Shown piece by piece: positions 17,122 to 25,404 of a stretch of 64,000 nt of DNA. The notes beneath the pieces were generated by a model, which saw nothing but the letters and a program-made list of their open reading frames with translations, made no database searches and had not been told where the DNA came from. Each line of letters begins with the position of its first letter. Positions within the stretch are counted from its first letter, which is position 1. The stretch is taken from assembly GCA_003220535.1 (NCBI GenBank), contig QHSU01000083.1, positions 1 through 64,000 on the forward strand. Direction: 5' to 3'. The DNA is from Candidatus Rokuibacteriota bacterium (lineage in GTDB: Bacteria; Methylomirabilota; Methylomirabilia; Rokubacteriales; CSP1-6). The translations under genes were made by a program, and so were the position numbers.

Positions 17122-17824
17122 TCATGACCGGCCTCCCGTTGACGCATGCACTCGCCCAGGGGCCGGGCGGGACCGTTCCGCGCTCGTTCGTTGCACGATC
17201 CGAATAATGAGCAGTGAGACGACCAGGAAGCCGGCGGCCGGCCCGAGGATCGAGATATCCGCACCAGGCCAGTGGACGCCGAGCCCCTCGCCCACCCAGA
17301 ACGTCCCGAAGCTTCCGATCAGGACTCCGACCGCGAGCTTCAGCGTGGTTCTCGGGCACCCGCGCGAGCGGTCGGCGCAGGGCCACACCGGCAACCGCGA
17401 CCACGAGGCCCGCCGCCGCGGCCGGCAGGCTGGCCGGAACCATCATGTGGGCGGCGGTTCCAACCGCCAGCACGATGAACACAATCTCGAGCCCCTCGAG
17501 CACCACAGCCTTGAAAGTGGTCACGATCGCGATGGTGTCCCACCGAATGGCCTGGCGCTCGTGCGGGCGTAGAGTCGCCGTCGCGCTCCGGAAGATTTCG
17601 CCCTCGTCGTGAAGCGGAATGATGCCGGCCGCTCGCAGCACGGCCTTCCGTAGCCAATTCATGCCGAAGAGCAAGAGCAGGAGCCCGATGACCAGCTGAA
17701 GCAGCGTGATCGGAATGACGCCGAGCGCCGGGCCAAGGACAACGACGAGCGCGGTGAGGACCATCAGTCCGCCCGCCGCTCCAAGGAGCGCCGATCTCCA
17801 GCCCCGCACCCAGCACGTCGTCAC
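17122..17824 (-). CDS. FTR1/COG4280-like membrane protein at the end of the hopanoid operon, frameshifted
   Basis: GTG 17824 overlaps the hpnN stop (GTGA). The protein has about six to seven helices; KAVVLEGLEIVFIVLAVGTA resembles the REGLE motif helix of FTR1 iron permeases and COG4280 proteins. Near 17350 the frame breaks after RVPEN; the adjacent frame continues with LKLAVGVLIGSFGTFWVGEG and FLVVSLLIIRIVQR. One extra base explains it. Corrected length is about 234 residues. A role in metal or small-solute transport is possible; the link to hopanoids is only by operon position. Confidence 0.6.
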
Positions 17825-20568
17825 GCCAACCGGATGAACGCGGAGGCTCTGCCTCGGCGAGGCCTGGGCGACGTCGTCCGTGGGTCCGGGGCAGGATCGA
17901 CGAGGCGAACGAGGACCGGCAAGACGACGATCGAGGCGATGAGGCTCGTGACGCTCCCGAGCGTGAGCAGGAGCCCGAGACTCCACATACCGCGGTGATG
18001 TGCCAGCATCAGCGTGCCGAATCCGGTGATCGTGGTGAGGCCGTTGAAGGCCACCGCCATGATGGTGCTCCGGGCGAAACGGGGGCCGCCACGCGCTCGC
18101 GCCTCGATGGCACGCGTGATGACGTTCAATCCGTACTCGGCCGAAGCCCCGATGATCAGCGGAACGCCCCAGACGTTCGCGAGGTTCAGCTTGAGCCCGA
18201 AGAGCGGCATGAGGCCGAGTGCCCACAGCGTCCCGAGCGCCAGCGGCGTCAACGCGAGCATGGTCTCGCGAAGCCGTCGGATCATGAACGCGATGATGAG
18301 ACCGACGACGATGAACGCGTACGCCCCGCCGCGCCGGTAGGCGTCTTCCATCCGGCGGATGGACTCGTAGGCGATGATCGGCGTGCCGGTGACGTCCGCG
18401 TCCACGAGCCGCAGCTCGTTCACGAACTGGACCGCGCCTTCACGCTCCCAGATGTCGACCTTCGGATGGATCTGAAGCAGGAACCGTCCTGGGTCACTGA
18501 TGAACTTTCTGCGCACCTCGGCCGGGATGTCGGCGACCGTGACGAGTCGCGGGTCCACGTTGCGCTGAAGAAAGAGCAGCTTGTCCGTGAAGTCTCGAAC
18601 GAGGTCGGTCTGGTAGCGCGTCAACCCCGTCTCGGTCTGCGCGGGCTCGGCGCCTCGGACTACCCGAAGGAGATCGGCGAGCCCGCTCTGGAGCACCCGC
18701 AGCTCGATACTGGCCCCGTCGGCGCCCGCTTCGGTCACGGCGACATCGATGCGCCGCCGGAGCGCCTCCAGCGCGCTCGTGACACGACTGACGTCAACCG
18801 GAGGCGTCGGGCCGATCCAGAGCGGTGCGATCAGCGGCCTGACATCGCCGACGATCTTTGCTTTGGCGACCTGGTCGTCAGGGATGAACAGCAGCGCCGT
18901 GTCGACGCTCGCCACCGACGGCAGCCGTTCGAACCCATCGCGCTTCCGCTCGAGCTCGGCCAGCGATGTCGCCGTCGACAACGCTGAATAGCTCGAACGG
19001 CCGTGTGCGTTCATGATCTGCCGCTCCCAGACCACCGACTCCGTACCACGGGCCTGGAGATCGAGCAGGTTGTAGTCGAATTCGACCATGCGCACTGACC
19101 AGAGCGAGAACGCGGTCAGGGCGCCGGCGCCGACGAGCACGGCAACCGGATGCCGCGTGAGACGCTCGACGAACGGCACGGCGGCGGGCGAGGGCGAGAC
19201 GTCCTGGTTCGAGGCCGATCCCGGCGTCACGCTGCGCCGGCGATGGATCAGAGCAAGGAGCGCTGGAAAGACCGTGACCATGGCCACGAACGACGCCAGG
19301 AGCGCCGTGCCAGCAATGAAGCCGAGCTCCTGCACCCCGTGGAAATCCGTACCGATCAGCACGTAGAAGGTCGCGGCGCCGGTGAGAGCGCCCAGCACGA
19401 TGCCTTGACCCGTGCGCGCCGCTGTCACCTGGAGCGCGTCGTCCACGCTCGCGCCGAGCCCTCGCTCTTCGTCAAACCGGAAGAGCACGTAGACACCGTA
19501 GTCGATGCCGAGGCCGATCACGATCGGGACGAACATCACGGAGAACACCGTGAGATGCCCGACCGTGACCGTGACGAGTCCGAGCGACCACAGCAGGCTC
19601 AGCGCGAGCACCGCCAGCATGACGAGGGGTTCTCGAAGACGCCGAAACGCGAGCAGCAGGAGCCCAAGCGTGAGCGCGAAGGCCAGGACCGTCGCAAGCT
19701 GACTGTCGTCGAAGGCGACGCGCATCCCGTCGGTCGCGAGCGCTGGGCCTCCGGTGACGCCGGCCCGAACATCGGGAAACTCGGCGCGCAGGCTCGCGAT
19801 CTGGCGGCGAATCTCGGCGATGGCGGCCCGATCATTCGTGAACCCGCCGCTGCCACCGGCCGGATCGGCGACGATGTAGAGGAGACTCTTGTCGTCGGAC
19901 AGGAAGTAGCCGGCGTCCTCGTCTCCTTCCGCGGCTGCCAGCATCGCGCCCCATGGCGAGCGATAGAGCACCGGGTGACTGGTCGCCTCGCGCATCTGCG
20001 TGACGAGCATCGTGAGGAACTGGATGTCGCCGGCCGTGGCGCTATCCTGGAGTCCGAGATCGAGAAAGTGGCTGGCGAAGGCGCGAGCAAACTGACGATT
20101 CACGCCGTCGAGAAGCGTCGCCAATCCCGGCGCCGAGACGAACGATTCGATGAAGTCTTGATGATCGTAGATCTGCTCCCGGAGCTCCTTCAGCGCTGGC
20201 GCCGGCAGGTAGAGCAGCCCTCGCCCATCGAAGTCCTCCAGCGCCACGCGATAGGCCAGGTGATTGAACGCGATGGGCCCGGCGCGCAAGTCCCCGGCGA
20301 GGCGGGCGGCGAACGCTCGAGACTGCTGGAACGTCCGGCCTCGTACCACGATGACGATCTCGTCGAGCTCGCCGAAGGCTTTCGAGTACTCGCGGTAGCG
20401 GGTCACATACGCCTGGCCCGGCGGCAGCAGGTGAAGCTCGGACGCTTCGAACGTGAGTCGTGTCATCGTGACCAGGACGGAGGCTGCGGCACAGCCGAGC
20501 GCGAGCGCGAGAACGAGGCGTGGGCGCCGTACGCACAGTCGCACCGTGCGGCTCAGCGCTCGGCTCAT
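17821..20568 (-). CDS. hpnN: RND-family hopanoid transporter HpnN
   Basis: A 915-residue MMPL/RND-type exporter with two sets of transmembrane helices separated by large periplasmic loops (around LTFEASELHLLPPGQAYVTR and YNLLDLQARGTESVVWERQI). Helix motifs GIDYGVYVLFRFDEERG and GASAEYGLNVITRAIEARAR are the internal repeats typical of this family. HpnN moves hopanoids from the inner to the outer membrane. Start ATG 20568 lies 8 nt after the hpnL stop; the longer open frame upstream overlaps hpnL and is not coding. Position in an hpnI-J-L-N cluster makes the family name secure. Confidence 0.88.
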   Translation of the reverse strand: MSRALSRTVRLCVRRPRLVLALALGCAAASVLVTMTRLTFEASELHLLPPGQAYVTRYREYSKAFGELDEIVIVVRGRTFQQSRAFAARLAGDLRAGPIAFNHLAYRVALEDFDGRGLLYLPAPALKELREQIYDHQDFIESFVSAPGLATLLDGVNRQFARAFASHFLDLGLQDSATAGDIQFLTMLVTQMREATSHPVLYRSPWGAMLAAAEGDEDAGYFLSDDKSLLYIVADPAGGSGGFTNDRAAIAEIRRQIASLRAEFPDVRAGVTGGPALATDGMRVAFDDSQLATVLAFALTLGLLLLAFRRLREPLVMLAVLALSLLWSLGLVTVTVGHLTVFSVMFVPIVIGLGIDYGVYVLFRFDEERGLGASVDDALQVTAARTGQGIVLGALTGAATFYVLIGTDFHGVQELGFIAGTALLASFVAMVTVFPALLALIHRRRSVTPGSASNQDVSPSPAAVPFVERLTRHPVAVLVGAGALTAFSLWSVRMVEFDYNLLDLQARGTESVVWERQIMNAHGRSSYSALSTATSLAELERKRDGFERLPSVASVDTALLFIPDDQVAKAKIVGDVRPLIAPLWIGPTPPVDVSRVTSALEALRRRIDVAVTEAGADGASIELRVLQSGLADLLRVVRGAEPAQTETGLTRYQTDLVRDFTDKLLFLQRNVDPRLVTVADIPAEVRRKFISDPGRFLLQIHPKVDIWEREGAVQFVNELRLVDADVTGTPIIAYESIRRMEDAYRRGGAYAFIVVGLIIAFMIRRLRETMLALTPLALGTLWALGLMPLFGLKLNLANVWGVPLIIGASAEYGLNVITRAIEARARGGPRFARSTIMAVAFNGLTTITGFGTLMLAHHRGMWSLGLLLTLGSVTSLIASIVVLPVLVRLVDPAPDPRTTSPRPRRGRASAFIRLA

Positions 20569-20576
20569 GAATGCGT

Positions 20577-21557
20577 TCACCACCAGAGCCCCGTCGGCCT
20601 GCAGCTCGTGCGGAGCGCCGCGCGCCTGAAGATGACGCCGGCGCGACCGACCTTGGCATAGCAGAGGAGGACGCCGACGCCGGACCAGATCAGCTCGCGG
20701 ACGTGCCGGACGACGCCGAACGCGAAGCCCAGCGTCGGCGGAAGTCCCAACGCGGCAAAGACGGCGACCTTGCCGCCCTCCTGGGTGCCGATCTTCGCGG
20801 GGACCATGAACACGATCCCGTCCACGGTGATCGATAGCACCTCGATGGCCAGCGCGGTGACGACCGACACGCGAATCAGCAGGAAGCGACAGATCCAGTA
20901 CGCCTCGAACGCACCCCACGCGTAGCCGAGGGCGAACATCAGCGTGGACAGCGCGACCCGGCCTGGGTGGTCGCGCACGAATTCGACCAGGCGGGCTCCG
21001 CACACGCGCTGCCAGACCACCGAGGCCACCCGAGCCCATCGGGACCAGCCGCGGAAGGCGATCAGGATCGCGATCGCGAACCCGATGCCGACCACCCACG
21101 GCAGCACCAACGACATGGGGGCGAGCGCGACCCATTCGTTCGCGACGAGGACCAGTCCGGCGGTGATGAAGATCGTCTGCGCCAGCGTCTGGGTCGACTT
21201 CGCGACGATGACAGAGACCGCTCGAATGTCGCGGCCGCGCGCATCGCTCAGCATCGCCGCGCGCGCGACCTCGCCGCCGATCGTCGCCGTCGGCGTCAAG
21301 TAGTTGATCGCATCACCCGCCACGCGGAGACGAACGAGCTCGCCGAGTGGAAAGGAGCCCGCGTCCTCACGCGCGAACGCGAAGCGCCACCCCAGCGCGT
21401 TCAGCAGATGCGCGGCGATCTCCTGCCCGAGGATCAGCGCCATGCCCCATCCCACCTGCAGCAGCGCGGATCGCACGGCGTTCACGTCGATCCGCCAGAC
21501 CAGGATGCCGAGGCCCAGTGTCCCGAGGGCGACCAGCACCTTCTGATTGGTCGTCAT
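20577..21557 (-). CDS. hpnL: Hopanoid-associated integral membrane protein HpnL
   Basis: A 326-residue membrane protein of the lysylphosphatidylglycerol synthase/UPF0104 type with about eight helices. Landmarks include NYLTPTATIGGEVARAAMLS and DGIVFMVPAKIGTQEGGKVA, which match the HpnL/MprF-flippase-like motif P-x-x-x-G-x-x-E/Q-G. ATG 21557 overlaps the upstream stop (ATGA). HpnL proteins lie in hopanoid clusters; a role in lipid flipping or transfer is presumed, not proven. Confidence 0.85.
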   Translation of the reverse strand: MTTNQKVLVALGTLGLGILVWRIDVNAVRSALLQVGWGMALILGQEIAAHLLNALGWRFAFAREDAGSFPLGELVRLRVAGDAINYLTPTATIGGEVARAAMLSDARGRDIRAVSVIVAKSTQTLAQTIFITAGLVLVANEWVALAPMSLVLPWVVGIGFAIAILIAFRGWSRWARVASVVWQRVCGARLVEFVRDHPGRVALSTLMFALGYAWGAFEAYWICRFLLIRVSVVTALAIEVLSITVDGIVFMVPAKIGTQEGGKVAVFAALGLPPTLGFAFGVVRHVRELIWSGVGVLLCYAKVGRAGVIFRRAALRTSCRPTGLWW

Positions 21558-24190
21558 CGTGAGCGCTGAGCGCAGACCCGGCACCAGAGGCTGATCCAGA
21601 ACAAGTTCGCGCCGATGGCCGCGCTCCACGCGAACCATTCGAGCCGCTCGAACGCGGCGAGCACCAAGACGAGATAGATGTAGTCACGGCTCGCGATACG
21701 CTCGTACGCGCGCTTGAATCCGAGCCGGCGCTCCGGTGGATAGCGATTGATCAGCCAGGAGACGGACGTCATGCTCAGCATGGCGCCGACAACGAGGACG
21801 AGCCCCGAGGCGGCGCTGCTCATCTCCGGGCGGATCCGGTACAGGTGCACCGTGATCGCAATGAAGGTCGCGAGATGGAGCACGTTGTCCGTCGCGATGT
21901 CGAAGCGAGCGCCGACGCGGGACGTGAGGAGCTTGAGCCGGGCCACCTCGCCATCGCAGCCGTCGAGAATGCAACTGACCCAGAGCAGCGCGGCGCCGAG
22001 CACCGCGTTCCATGAGCTCACGCTCGCAAGGAATGCGGCGCCGCCGAGGCCGACGAGGAGACTCAGCGCCGTGATCGCGTTCGGGGTGACCGGCGTGCGG
22101 ATCAACACCCGAGAGAGGGCGACGGACAGCGCGCGATCGAAGCGTGCCAGGTAGCCGTCACTCGGCTGGCGGAGCGAGCTGAAGAGCCGGCGCTCCGCAT
22201 TTCGACGGCCCGTCGAATCGTTCGCGTCATTCCAGCTATTCGCCGGGGCCTGCATGCGGACCGCATCCGAATCGGACACGGCCCAATGCGCGAAATCTCC
22301 CGACGCGAGGGCGGCTCGCCTGAGCAGCGTCCGGCCGGCCGGATAGTAGGCGCCCACGGGCGTGCCTCGCGACATCCACGTCGTCGGCCGCCCCTCCGTC
22401 GCCCGCCGTCGCACGAGCTCGCGCACCTCGCGCGGCTCGGGCACCGTGTTCGGCGCGATCACCAGCACGGGCGCTTCGGGATCGAGCACATCGGCAAGAG
22501 ACTTCGAAGCCGTGACAGACCCGCTCTCGGTCCACGGCACGCGGATTCCGGCCAACAGTCGTCGGTAGGACGGTGGCAACGTGCCGGCCTCGGTATAGAC
22601 GATGATGCGGCTGGCGCCCTCCAGCGTGGCGACGACGTTCGCGGCGCGCACCGCGGCGGGCACCGAGGCCACCATGGCCGGGTGGCGTGGCACCGGAACG
22701 ACCACTTGCAGATCCGGCGCGCGTCCCGGCACGCTCGCGGCCCCGGCCGTGCTGTGTGCGGGCGCTTCTCTCGTGCGCCCCGCCAGGAACTGCAGGAACT
22801 CCCGCCCCTCGCGGAGTCGCCGGCGCATGACCCGGCGGTCCGCGGCCATCTCCTTCGCGATCGCGAAAATCTTCCGCGGCCTGAAGTAGAACCGCCGATA
22901 GAACTCCTCCGTGCCACGCGAGATTTCTGTGCTGAGCAGGTGCGGATACGACAGCGCGCTGACCTGGGTGCCGCGGTCGTCGACGAGCGCCTCCCCCGAG
23001 AGCCAGCCGTTGTCGACCGCCTGCCGGAAGAGCTCGGTGCCTGGATACGGTGCGGCGATCGATACTTGAATCGTGTCGGGGTCGATATCGCAGGCGAAGC
23101 GGATGGTTTCCGGGATGGTCTCCGCGGTCTCGCCCGGCAGCCCCAGGATGAACGTGCCATGAATCTTGATGCCGAGCGCCTTCGCGTGCTTCGTGAACTG
23201 CCGGGCCATGTCCAGGCGAATGCCCTTTTTCACGTTGTTCAGGATCTTCTGGTTGCCGGACTCGTATCCAACGAGCAGCAGGCGGAGCCCGTTGTCCTTC
23301 ATGACCTTCAGCGTGTCATACGGAACGTTGGCCTTGGCGTTGCACGACCACGTCACACCGAGCTTGCCGAGACGCCGCGCGAGCGCCTCGACGCGCGGCA
23401 GGTCATCGGTCAGCGTGTCGTCGTCGAAGAAGTACTCTCGCACTTGGGGGAAGTACCGCGTGGCGAGCGCGATCTCGTCGGCGACGTGCTCGACGCTGCG
23501 CGTGCGATATCGATGCCCCCCGACCGTCTGCGGCCACAGGCAGAACGTGCATTTGGACCGGCAGCCCCGTCCCGTGTAGAGCGACACGTACGGATACAGC
23601 AGGTAGCCAATCGCGTAGTGCTCGACGACGAGGTCGCGCTTGTAAACGTCCACCACGAACGGCAGCGCGTCCATGTTCTCGAGCACGGGACGGTCCGGCG
23701 TGTGCCGGATCGTGCCATTCGACCGGAAGCTGAGACCGAGGACGGCACCGAGCTCGCGCCCCTCGGCGACTTCCTTGATCGTGAAGTCGAACTCGCTCCG
23801 CGCGACGAAGTCGATCGCCGTCGACGCCGACAGCGCCCGCTCGGGATTCACGGCAACGTGCGCGCCCACGAACCCGATCCGCAGCGCCGGATTCTCCGTC
23901 TTGAGCGCCACGGCCACCCGCACGTCGTGCGCGAATGAGGGTGTGCTGGTGTGGAGAACGGCCAGATCATAGTCCGCCGCCATCGACCGGACGTCGTCGA
24001 GCGTGACATCATCGGGCGGCGCGTCGAGGAGCCGCGAGCCCGGCACCAGCGCGGCTGGCTGCGCAAGCCAGGTCGGGTACCAGAACGATCGGATCTCGCG
24101 CCGCGCCTGATATCGCGCTCCGGCGCCGCCGTCGAAGCCCTCGTACGACGGTGGATGCAGGAACAGCGTCCTCAGATAGGCGCCGCTCAT
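21554..24190 (-). CDS. hpnJ: HpnJ radical SAM protein with C-terminal nucleotidyltransferase-like and CDP-alcohol phosphatidyltransferase domains
   Basis: The first ~470 residues are HpnJ: the opening LFLHPPSYEGFDGGAGARYQ, WYPTWLAQPAALVPGSRLLD, a B12-binding-type fold, and the 4Fe-4S motif CRSKCTFC (Cys210, 214, 217). HpnJ contracts the sugar ring to make the bacteriohopanetetrol cyclitol ether. Unlike ordinary HpnJ of about 470 aa, this protein is 878 aa. Residues about 480-670 resemble a degenerate nucleotidyltransferase, and from about 680 comes an integral CDP-alcohol phosphatidyltransferase with DGEVARLKLLTSRVGARFD and the final Asp (DG-x2-AR-x8-G-x3-D-x3-D). ATG 24190 overlaps the hpnI stop. 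Confidence 0.85.
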   Translation of the reverse strand: MSGAYLRTLFLHPPSYEGFDGGAGARYQARREIRSFWYPTWLAQPAALVPGSRLLDAPPDDVTLDDVRSMAADYDLAVLHTSTPSFAHDVRVAVALKTENPALRIGFVGAHVAVNPERALSASTAIDFVARSEFDFTIKEVAEGRELGAVLGLSFRSNGTIRHTPDRPVLENMDALPFVVDVYKRDLVVEHYAIGYLLYPYVSLYTGRGCRSKCTFCLWPQTVGGHRYRTRSVEHVADEIALATRYFPQVREYFFDDDTLTDDLPRVEALARRLGKLGVTWSCNAKANVPYDTLKVMKDNGLRLLLVGYESGNQKILNNVKKGIRLDMARQFTKHAKALGIKIHGTFILGLPGETAETIPETIRFACDIDPDTIQVSIAAPYPGTELFRQAVDNGWLSGEALVDDRGTQVSALSYPHLLSTEISRGTEEFYRRFYFRPRKIFAIAKEMAADRRVMRRRLREGREFLQFLAGRTREAPAHSTAGAASVPGRAPDLQVVVPVPRHPAMVASVPAAVRAANVVATLEGASRIIVYTEAGTLPPSYRRLLAGIRVPWTESGSVTASKSLADVLDPEAPVLVIAPNTVPEPREVRELVRRRATEGRPTTWMSRGTPVGAYYPAGRTLLRRAALASGDFAHWAVSDSDAVRMQAPANSWNDANDSTGRRNAERRLFSSLRQPSDGYLARFDRALSVALSRVLIRTPVTPNAITALSLLVGLGGAAFLASVSSWNAVLGAALLWVSCILDGCDGEVARLKLLTSRVGARFDIATDNVLHLATFIAITVHLYRIRPEMSSAASGLVLVVGAMLSMTSVSWLINRYPPERRLGFKRAYERIASRDYIYLVLVLAAFERLEWFAWSAAIGANLFWISLWCRVCAQRSR

Positions 24191-25404
24191 GCGGATTCCT
24201 CCCATTCGGATACGAACGGCGCGGACACTGCGGGTCGGCCGAGCGCTTCTCGGTTGGCGGCGTCCGACCGGCGCTCGAGACGGCCGTCAGGACGAACGCG
24301 CAGCTCCGCATCGTTCCATCGCACGGTGCGTCCCAGGAAGCTGACGATCACAACGAGAAACGAAAGCACGTCACGAATCGGAACCAGCCACGTGTCGGCC
24401 CAGCGGAGGCGCCGGTCGAGCGACCGCGACATGGCGATGCGCCCGACGCACCGGAGGCCCACGTGCGCGGCCGTGGCGATGCCGGCGAGGGAACCGCCCA
24501 TGCTCACCCCAAGCCACACGAGCGACAGCGGAATCCCGAACGTGAAGAGCGAGCAGAAGTACGGCAGCGGTCGCAGGGTCCGAAACGTCCGCGCCCATCG
24601 AAGCTCGTGGACGAGGAGGGTCCGTACGTTCGACTCCGTGATGATGTTGTCGACCAGATACGGGACGAGCTCGACGCGCAGCCCCAGGCGGCCGACGAGC
24701 CGGCCGAGCATGTAGTCGTCCGCGAGGTAGTCCGCCACTGCTTCGAAGCCACCGATCGCGCCGAGCGTCCCGCGCCGGCAGGCGATCGTCGCGCCGAATG
24801 CGTGCCGCAGCGGCTCGACATGAGTACCGACGAGCGCGGCGGGGAAAAACCATTCGTTGATGAACATGGCTCCGAGCGTCGACGCCACGCCGGACGGTGC
24901 CACGCCGCGATACAGACACGTCACCAGCCCGACGTGCAGTTCCGCGAGCCGACCCACGACCGCGCGGATGTAGTCGGGCCCGACGCGCATGTCACTGTCG
25001 GCGATGATCAGGATGTCGTGCTTCGCATACCCGACGAGATTGGCGAGGTTGCTGACCTTCAGGTTCGTCCCGATCGTCCGGTCGTCGATCAGGAGCTTGA
25101 GCTCGAGGTCGGGAAAGTCCTGAATCAGCCGTTCGACAACGACGATGGCCGGATCGTGCCGGTCACGCACGCCGAAGACGATCTCGAAGCTCCGATAGTC
25201 CTGCCGGCAAAAGCTCGCCAGGTTTTCGTACAGCTGCCCGTCGTCGCCTCTGAGCGGCTTCAAGATCGTGACGGGAGGCGAACAGTCCGAACGACTCGGA
25301 CGCGATCGGCCATATCTGGCCGCGCACCCGAACGCGGCCACCGAGTAGAGCGCGGCGAAGATCACCGGGCCGAGAAATACGAGGTCGATGGCAGACATTT
25401 TCAT
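24187..25404 (-). CDS. hpnI: Hopanoid glycosyltransferase HpnI
   Basis: A 405-residue membrane GT2/GT21-like enzyme: an N-terminal anchor helix, VTILKPLRGDDGQLYENLAS, the D-x-D region LIIADSDMRVGPDYIR, the acceptor-site Asp pair VADYLADDYMLGRLV and HELRWARTFR in the position of the (Q/R)xxRW motif, then C-terminal helices. HpnI adds N-acetylglucosamine to bacteriohopanetetrol as the first step toward glucosamine and cyclitol-ether head groups. It heads the operon hpnI-hpnJ-hpnL-hpnN. The deacetylase HpnK, usual in such clusters, is absent here. ATG 25398 is an alternative start with better ribosome-site spacing. Confidence 0.88.
   Translation of the reverse strand: MKMSAIDLVFLGPVIFAALYSVAAFGCAARYGRSRPSRSDCSPPVTILKPLRGDDGQLYENLASFCRQDYRSFEIVFGVRDRHDPAIVVVERLIQDFPDLELKLLIDDRTIGTNLKVSNLANLVGYAKHDILIIADSDMRVGPDYIRAVVGRLAELHVGLVTCLYRGVAPSGVASTLGAMFINEWFFPAALVGTHVEPLRHAFGATIACRRGTLGAIGGFEAVADYLADDYMLGRLVGRLGLRVELVPYLVDNIITESNVRTLLVHELRWARTFRTLRPLPYFCSLFTFGIPLSLVWLGVSMGGSLAGIATAAHVGLRCVGRIAMSRSLDRRLRWADTWLVPIRDVLSFLVVIVSFLGRTVRWNDAELRVRPDGRLERRSDAANREALGRPAVSAPFVSEWEESA

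Follow-up and report, generated by a model that had tools for sequence, protein, structure and literature searches.

Within a 64,000-nucleotide stretch of a Candidatus Rokuibacteriota genome (positions 1 to 64,000 of contig QHSU01000083.1, assembly GCA_003220535.1; hereafter the window), the minus strand carries a row of four genes, the second of which, lying between hpnI and an hpnL-like gene followed by an hpnN-like gene, fuses hpnJ to the coding sequence of an AF2299-like CDP-alcohol phosphotransferase (Table 1). Hopanoids are sterol-like lipids of bacteria, and HpnI is the glycosyltransferase that puts N-acetylglucosamine (GlcNAc) onto bacteriohopanetetrol (BHT). HpnJ acts in the hpnI-hpnK-hpnJ route as the BHT cyclitol ether synthase (Schmerk et al. 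2015, as cited in PMC12583986). We consider here whether the C-terminal part of the fusion, called the tail below, is a phosphotransferase devoted to hopanoid head groups. The fusion gene overlaps its neighbour by an ATGA at each end. A preliminary description had placed it at 21554–24190; these coordinates stand, and frame analysis established the minus strand, the plus strand of the same interval holding stops and one unrelated shadow frame. The assignment of roughly the first 470 residues to HpnJ is borne out by a TIGR03471 match well over its cut-off, and the 4Fe-4S motif named in the same description is present; the N-terminus of the HpnJ part additionally shows a weak B12-binding-like likeness. 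Both downstream genes are named by likeness and position because they score below the cut-offs of their best NCBIfam matches, which are TIGR03476 (HpnL; 116.8 bits, cut-off 195.65) and TIGR03480 (HpnN; 529.8 bits, cut-off 751.85).

Table 1. Features of the fusion gene and of its operon neighbours, in window coordinates.
Feature	Coordinates	Strand	Evidence and remarks
hpnJ - AF2299-like CDP-alcohol phosphotransferase fusion gene	21554..24190	minus	878 aa; ATG 24190; TGA 21556-21554
HpnJ part, residues 7-472	22775..24172	minus	TIGR03471 776.9 bits, cut-off 577.6; PF04055 radical SAM
4Fe-4S motif CRSKCTFC (radical SAM CxxxCxxC), residues 210-217	23540..23563	minus	motif inspection
Linker (~residues 473-492) and pseudo-nucleotidyltransferase domain (~residues 494-656)	22223..22774	minus	structure models, fold match; GxGxR...K absent
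CDP-alcohol phosphotransferase membrane domain, residues 657-878, six predicted transmembrane helices	21557..22222	minus	PF01066
Signature DGCDGEVARLKLLTSRVGARFDIATD (D1xxD2G1xxAR...G2xxxD3xxxD4), residues 743-768	21887..21964	minus	eight residues complete
hpnI	24187..25404	minus	TIGR03472 415.4 bits, cut-off 310; ATGA overlap with fusion gene
hpnL-like membrane protein (LPG_synthase_TM)	20577..21557	minus	PF03706 78.5 bits, cut-off 33.4; ATGA overlap with fusion gene
hpnN-like RND transporter	17821..20580	minus	start GTG 20580 or ATG 20568; TIGR03480

The frame that runs open through both parts recurs in four further sequences from metagenome-assembled genomes (MAGs; genomes, contigs and loci are cited by G, C and L numbers): G023 (L061), G003 (L062), G068 (L063, whose contig starts within HpnJ) and a MAG labelled Gemmatimonadetes AG14 (L060). 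Full-length copies are 73–79% identical to that of the window, and the tails of the four other fusions are 55–68% identical to the window's tail. As an uninterrupted fused frame is present in five different sequences, the single polypeptide originally described is real. An assembly or frameshift artefact that joined two neighbouring genes might be suspected from the 8% contamination of the window assembly and from the proximity of hpnJ and tail genes in some relatives, but it was rejected as vanishingly improbable, since one of the five in-frame fusions comes from a genome with 2% contamination (G023) and the 8% of the window genome is therefore not the cause. The preliminary description had also raised the prospect of relatives in which a stop splits the two halves; separate genes do exist elsewhere, but they are not direct neighbours in the same order, and a lost stop or a missed frameshift alone would thus not yield the fusion. 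No record in the plasmid collection spans 80% of the fusion.

In a tree of HpnJ, the five fused forms make up one clade (support 100/99), and a single change accounts for the fusion, which arose once. The window genome (G000), G003 and G023 each hold a second, ordinary HpnJ that is ~75% identical to the fused copy. In this tree the fusions cluster with G068's ordinary HpnJ and not with these second copies (that of G000 lies at L038:9278-10705), a grouping that suggests movement of the fusion operon from one genus of Rokubacteria to another. At L060 (QHVB01000018.1), the fusion operon of the MAG labelled Gemmatimonadetes AG14 has an HpnJ inside the Rokubacteria clade, which implies either transfer or a misbinned contig.

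The tail ends in a match to the CDP-alcohol phosphotransferase family PF01066 (CDP-OH_P_transf), covering residues 702–846 at 44 bits (cut-off 22). The family signature, D743-x2-D-G-x2-A-R-x8-G-x3-D-x3-D768, is complete in the window protein, as the preliminary description had recognised, and none of its eight residues varies among 14 tails with 35–67% identity to the window's; D768, in the D4 position, is likely the catalytic base. A structure model of the tail (residues 482–878, built from 20 sequences, mean predicted local distance difference test (pLDDT) score 86.5) consists of an alpha/beta domain, a juxtamembrane helix and six transmembrane (TM) helices (tail residues 222–396). The model of the full-length fusion was poor (pLDDT 67, with the HpnJ half built from few sequences) and was used solely for the linker between HpnJ and the tail, which is of low confidence and flexible. 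The best fold matches in the PDB over the whole tail are AF2299 (1e-11), the Archaeoglobus fulgidus IPCT-DIPPS and phosphatidylinositol phosphate synthase (PIPS) fusions with the AF2299 domain; IspD and sugar nucleotidyltransferases rank lower.

The alpha/beta domain, which had been described as nucleotidyltransferase-like, has no Pfam match. The GxGxR...K catalytic loop is absent from the window protein and from every examined tail that has the region. Aligned by profile to a loop-bearing nucleotidyltransferase, the tail gives no significant match, the weak alignment starting just after the loop, and kinship with nucleotidyltransferases is visible from the fold only. The earlier label thus holds for the fold, given the tail model and the PDB matches, and fails for catalysis; an active nucleotidyltransferase domain was rejected because the loop is missing. 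That the polypeptide activates the polyol by itself is thus improbable, as no homologue examined with this region has the loop. Judged on its residues, the window's tail is probably unable to synthesise a CDP-alcohol itself but should be capable of using one that is ready-made. The loss of this loop is also what speaks for a tail devoid of catalysis that serves HpnJ as a membrane anchor. Such a role is very unlikely, however, given that the eight phosphotransferase residues stay invariant across the 14 tails at the identities given above and that stand-alone tails cannot anchor HpnJ.

Tails encoded as separate genes occur within hopanoid clusters. One lies beside hpnL, hpnI and hpnJ in the Rokubacteria G034 and G013, and the Elusimicrobia G081, G083 and G086 have the gene order hpnJ-hpnI-tail-hpnL, with an hpnK-like gene convergent to the cluster in G083 and G086, where the contig reaches that far. 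G037, from another family of the window's order, has a divergent tail, an hpnL-like gene and hpnJ in a row (L041:7855-11844, G037:C137), and its genome gave no HpnI match at E 1e-50. Across genomes, the hopanoid-type tail was told from a generic paralogue by score (378–556 bits versus at most 189). Of 199 Elusimicrobiota genomes, 16 have HpnJ and the same 16 have HpnI; the hopanoid-type tail occurs in 10, all within those 16 (hypergeometric 4e-13, with genomes taken as independent and kinship uncorrected). Six of the 60 genomes of the window's order have the tail; HpnI is over its cut-off in five of them, and in the sixth, G068, the contig ends before hpnI. Squalene-hopene cyclase is over cut-off in 13 of 13 tail-bearing genomes tested and HpnH in 12 of 14. 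Gene position, distribution and the presence of the rest of the pathway together indicate that the tail belongs to hopanoid synthesis. The tie between the transferase and hopanoid head groups that the preliminary description had drawn consequently extends beyond the fusion, to separate tails in hpnI/hpnJ/hpnL operons and to a distribution nested in that of HpnI and HpnJ. On the evidence of sequence, a hopanoid-linked CDP-alcohol phosphotransferase family exists in Rokubacteria and Elusimicrobia; monophyly of the hopanoid-type tails has support of 80/88, which falls short of establishing a single origin of the tail family.

Most of these genomes encode the generic paralogue (~31–40% identical) at another locus, within an operon that is conserved in Rokubacteria, Methylomirabilis and Elusimicrobiota. 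This operon encodes a HAD phosphatase, an NTP transferase, an unassigned protein, a class III aminotransferase, a Gfo/Idh oxidoreductase and the CDP-alcohol phosphotransferase, to which Rokubacteria mostly add a CopD-like and an LPG_synthase_TM protein; examples are L042 (G000:C112:2923-11253), L047, L046, L048, L050, L125-L129, L134 and L135. It looks like a pathway for an aminated polyol phosphodiester. The GEGSRL...PK loop of its NTP transferase is intact in nearly all of seven aligned sequences. The paralogue is present in 10 of 10 tail-bearing Elusimicrobiota versus 5 of 189 others, and, among Elusimicrobiota with HpnI and HpnJ, in 10 of 10 with the tail versus 2 of 6 without it (Fisher 0.008, uncorrected and with genomes as independent). 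Its neighbourhood was inspected in 4 of the 10 tail-bearing Elusimicrobiota (G083, G085, G174 and G239; L125-L128), and all four have the operon.

The nature of the donor is suggested by the form of the signature. A motif comparison finds DGCDGE in the tail, AF2299 and DIPPS and not in PIP synthases (PDB 5D91/5D92, 6WM5, 6H53), which share the membrane fold and the eight-residue signature of the tail. According to PMC4634129, lipids are not processed by either AF2299 or DIPPS, and the donor bound by AF2299 is CDP-glycerol, whereas PIP synthases, which take CDP-diacylglycerol (CDP-DAG) through a lipid groove, are without DGCDGE; a hydrophilic donor is favoured for the tail on these grounds. PIP synthases are nevertheless its next nearest solved relatives, and their use of CDP-DAG with a polar cyclitol acceptor (PMC4634129) would have its counterpart in a phosphatidyltransferase that places a phosphatidyl group from CDP-DAG onto the cyclitol or polyol of a hopanoid, giving a phospholipid-hopanoid conjugate. 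Six TM helices would fit such a pairing of a polar acceptor group with a lipid donor. We hold this reaction to be unlikely, since the best matches by both sequence and fold are to AF2299 and DIPPS, with which the DGCDGE form goes, and since the paralogues stand in operons with their own nucleotidyltransferase.

The reading we favour, at about an even chance, is that the fusion is a two-enzyme protein of the BHT cyclitol-ether branch whose tail adds a phospho-polyol from a hydrophilic CDP-alcohol to the hopanoid head group. In the sequence of steps we infer, HpnI would put GlcNAc on BHT and the HpnJ half would then carry out the radical-SAM step yielding the BHT cyclitol ether. A distinct cytidylyltransferase, perhaps the one in the HAD/NTP-transferase/aminotransferase/oxidoreductase operon, would supply the CDP-polyol, and the tail would pass the phospho-polyol from this hydrophilic donor to a hydroxyl of the head group, resulting in a charged, phosphodiester-linked hopanoid. 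The active site of the tail would lie at the cytosolic face of the six TM helices, and the two catalytic centres of the fusion would both be turned towards the cytosol. The finished lipid may be flipped by HpnL and taken to the outer membrane by HpnN.

Several observations weigh against this scheme. At least eight Elusimicrobia encode the tail away from the hpn cluster, and hpnI-hpnJ occurs without a tail in three Rokubacteria (G030, G070 and G071), which makes the tail accessory. The value given for nesting takes no account of phylogeny, and the tie of the tail to a particular CDP-alcohol supply is one of co-occurrence. No HpnK match exceeded the cut-off in the window genome or the other Rokubacteria tested, which gave weak deacetylase-like matches only. 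The tail has six TM helices, whereas members of the family with lipid acceptors usually have 3–4 more, and a hopanoid acceptor contrasts with the soluble acceptors used by the known six-TM relatives (PMC4634129); as a guess, the polar head of the hopanoid may reach the active site without extra helices. These soluble acceptors, the tails outside hpn clusters and the HpnI/HpnJ genomes without a tail would also suit a tail that makes a different phosphodiester, either some other membrane lipid or a soluble polyol phosphodiester, that is simply co-regulated with hopanoids or employed alongside them; fusion and operon would then reflect shared expression or membrane tethering. We regard this explanation as doubtful, while serious enough to keep in mind: the distribution of the tail is nested in that of HpnI and HpnJ among the 199 Elusimicrobiota, and hopanoid head-group operons of two phyla contain the tail, with differing gene order and in one case by fusion. 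Transfer of a phospho-polyol to the hopanoid itself remains the preferred reading.

HpnK is the deacetylation step, needed before HpnJ in the known route, in which HpnJ turns BHT-glucosamine into BHT cyclitol ether. Because no HpnK exceeds its cut-off and the tail takes the position of hpnK in Mycetohabitans, the HpnJ substrate in these Rokubacteria may differ from the textbook one. An ordinary HpnJ adjoins an ArnT-like membrane glycosyltransferase at L038:9278-12422 (G000:C82) and at ~18 other Rokubacteria loci, e.g. L018, L025, L045 and L049. The ArnT-like protein scores 46.5 bits to PRK13279, well under the cut-off, and only 9 of the 60 genomes of the window's order have an HpnI above the cut-off; at those loci, the ArnT-like protein may supply the sugar for HpnJ.

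The component families are known. Neither their combination nor the association of one phosphotransferase family with hopanoid head groups across two phyla was found in Pfam or NCBIfam, and the literature searched by title and abstract, with subscription journals mostly outside its coverage, described no lipid or gene of this kind. A 2025 survey quantifying 63 biohopanoids in Alphaproteobacteria distinguishes five types, none of them phosphate-linked (PMC12583986). Fusion in some uncultured soil bacteria and separate genes in the hopanoid operons of another phylum point to an undescribed phosphate-linked hopanoid. That the dedicated family makes such hopanoids, with a cyclitol or polyol head group bearing a phosphodiester-linked polyol, seems to us evenly poised between right and wrong, and there is a fair chance that the finding leads to a new lipid class. 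Few molecular fossils are as well preserved as hopanoids, whose head groups serve as biomarkers. A charged, phosphodiester-linked head group would, if real, define a new class of lipid with different membrane behaviour, and such hopanoids could escape extraction and mass-spectrometry methods tuned to the known types. The fusion gene offers a direct genetic handle on where to look, namely in Rokubacteria and Elusimicrobia.

Among known systems, the tail most resembles AF2299 of Archaeoglobus fulgidus (PDB 4O6M/4O6N/4Q7C), a CDP-alcohol phosphotransferase with a cytidylyltransferase-like domain, which ranks first among the tail's matches both in sequence profile (1.6e-35) and in fold across the two domains. 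The two have in common the DGCDGE motif, six TM helices and an architecture in which a nucleotidyltransferase-fold domain is joined to a DGCDGE-type phosphotransferase domain. They are only 19–22% identical in structural alignment, and AF2299, an archaeal protein, stands alone and has no tie to hopanoids, whereas the tail module is either joined to HpnJ or encoded in its cluster. Bifunctional IPCT/DIPPS (NF041135), the best NCBIfam match of the tail and its second best in the PDB, likewise has a nucleotidyltransferase-fold domain followed by a CDP-alcohol phosphotransferase with the DGCDGE motif. The match covers residues 652–859, resembling the second half of IPCT/DIPPS, and membership of that family was rejected on the score (67.7 bits versus a cut-off of 580) and on the absence of the nucleotidyltransferase loop. 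The fusion is like known HpnJ loci in adjoining hpnI and in having hpnL-like and hpnN-like genes downstream. Ordinary HpnJ ends near residue 475 (in Mycetohabitans, a 1422-bp hpnJ is followed by hpnK and hpnL), whereas the fusion runs 400 residues further, and its membrane phosphotransferase stands in the operon where Mycetohabitans has hpnK.

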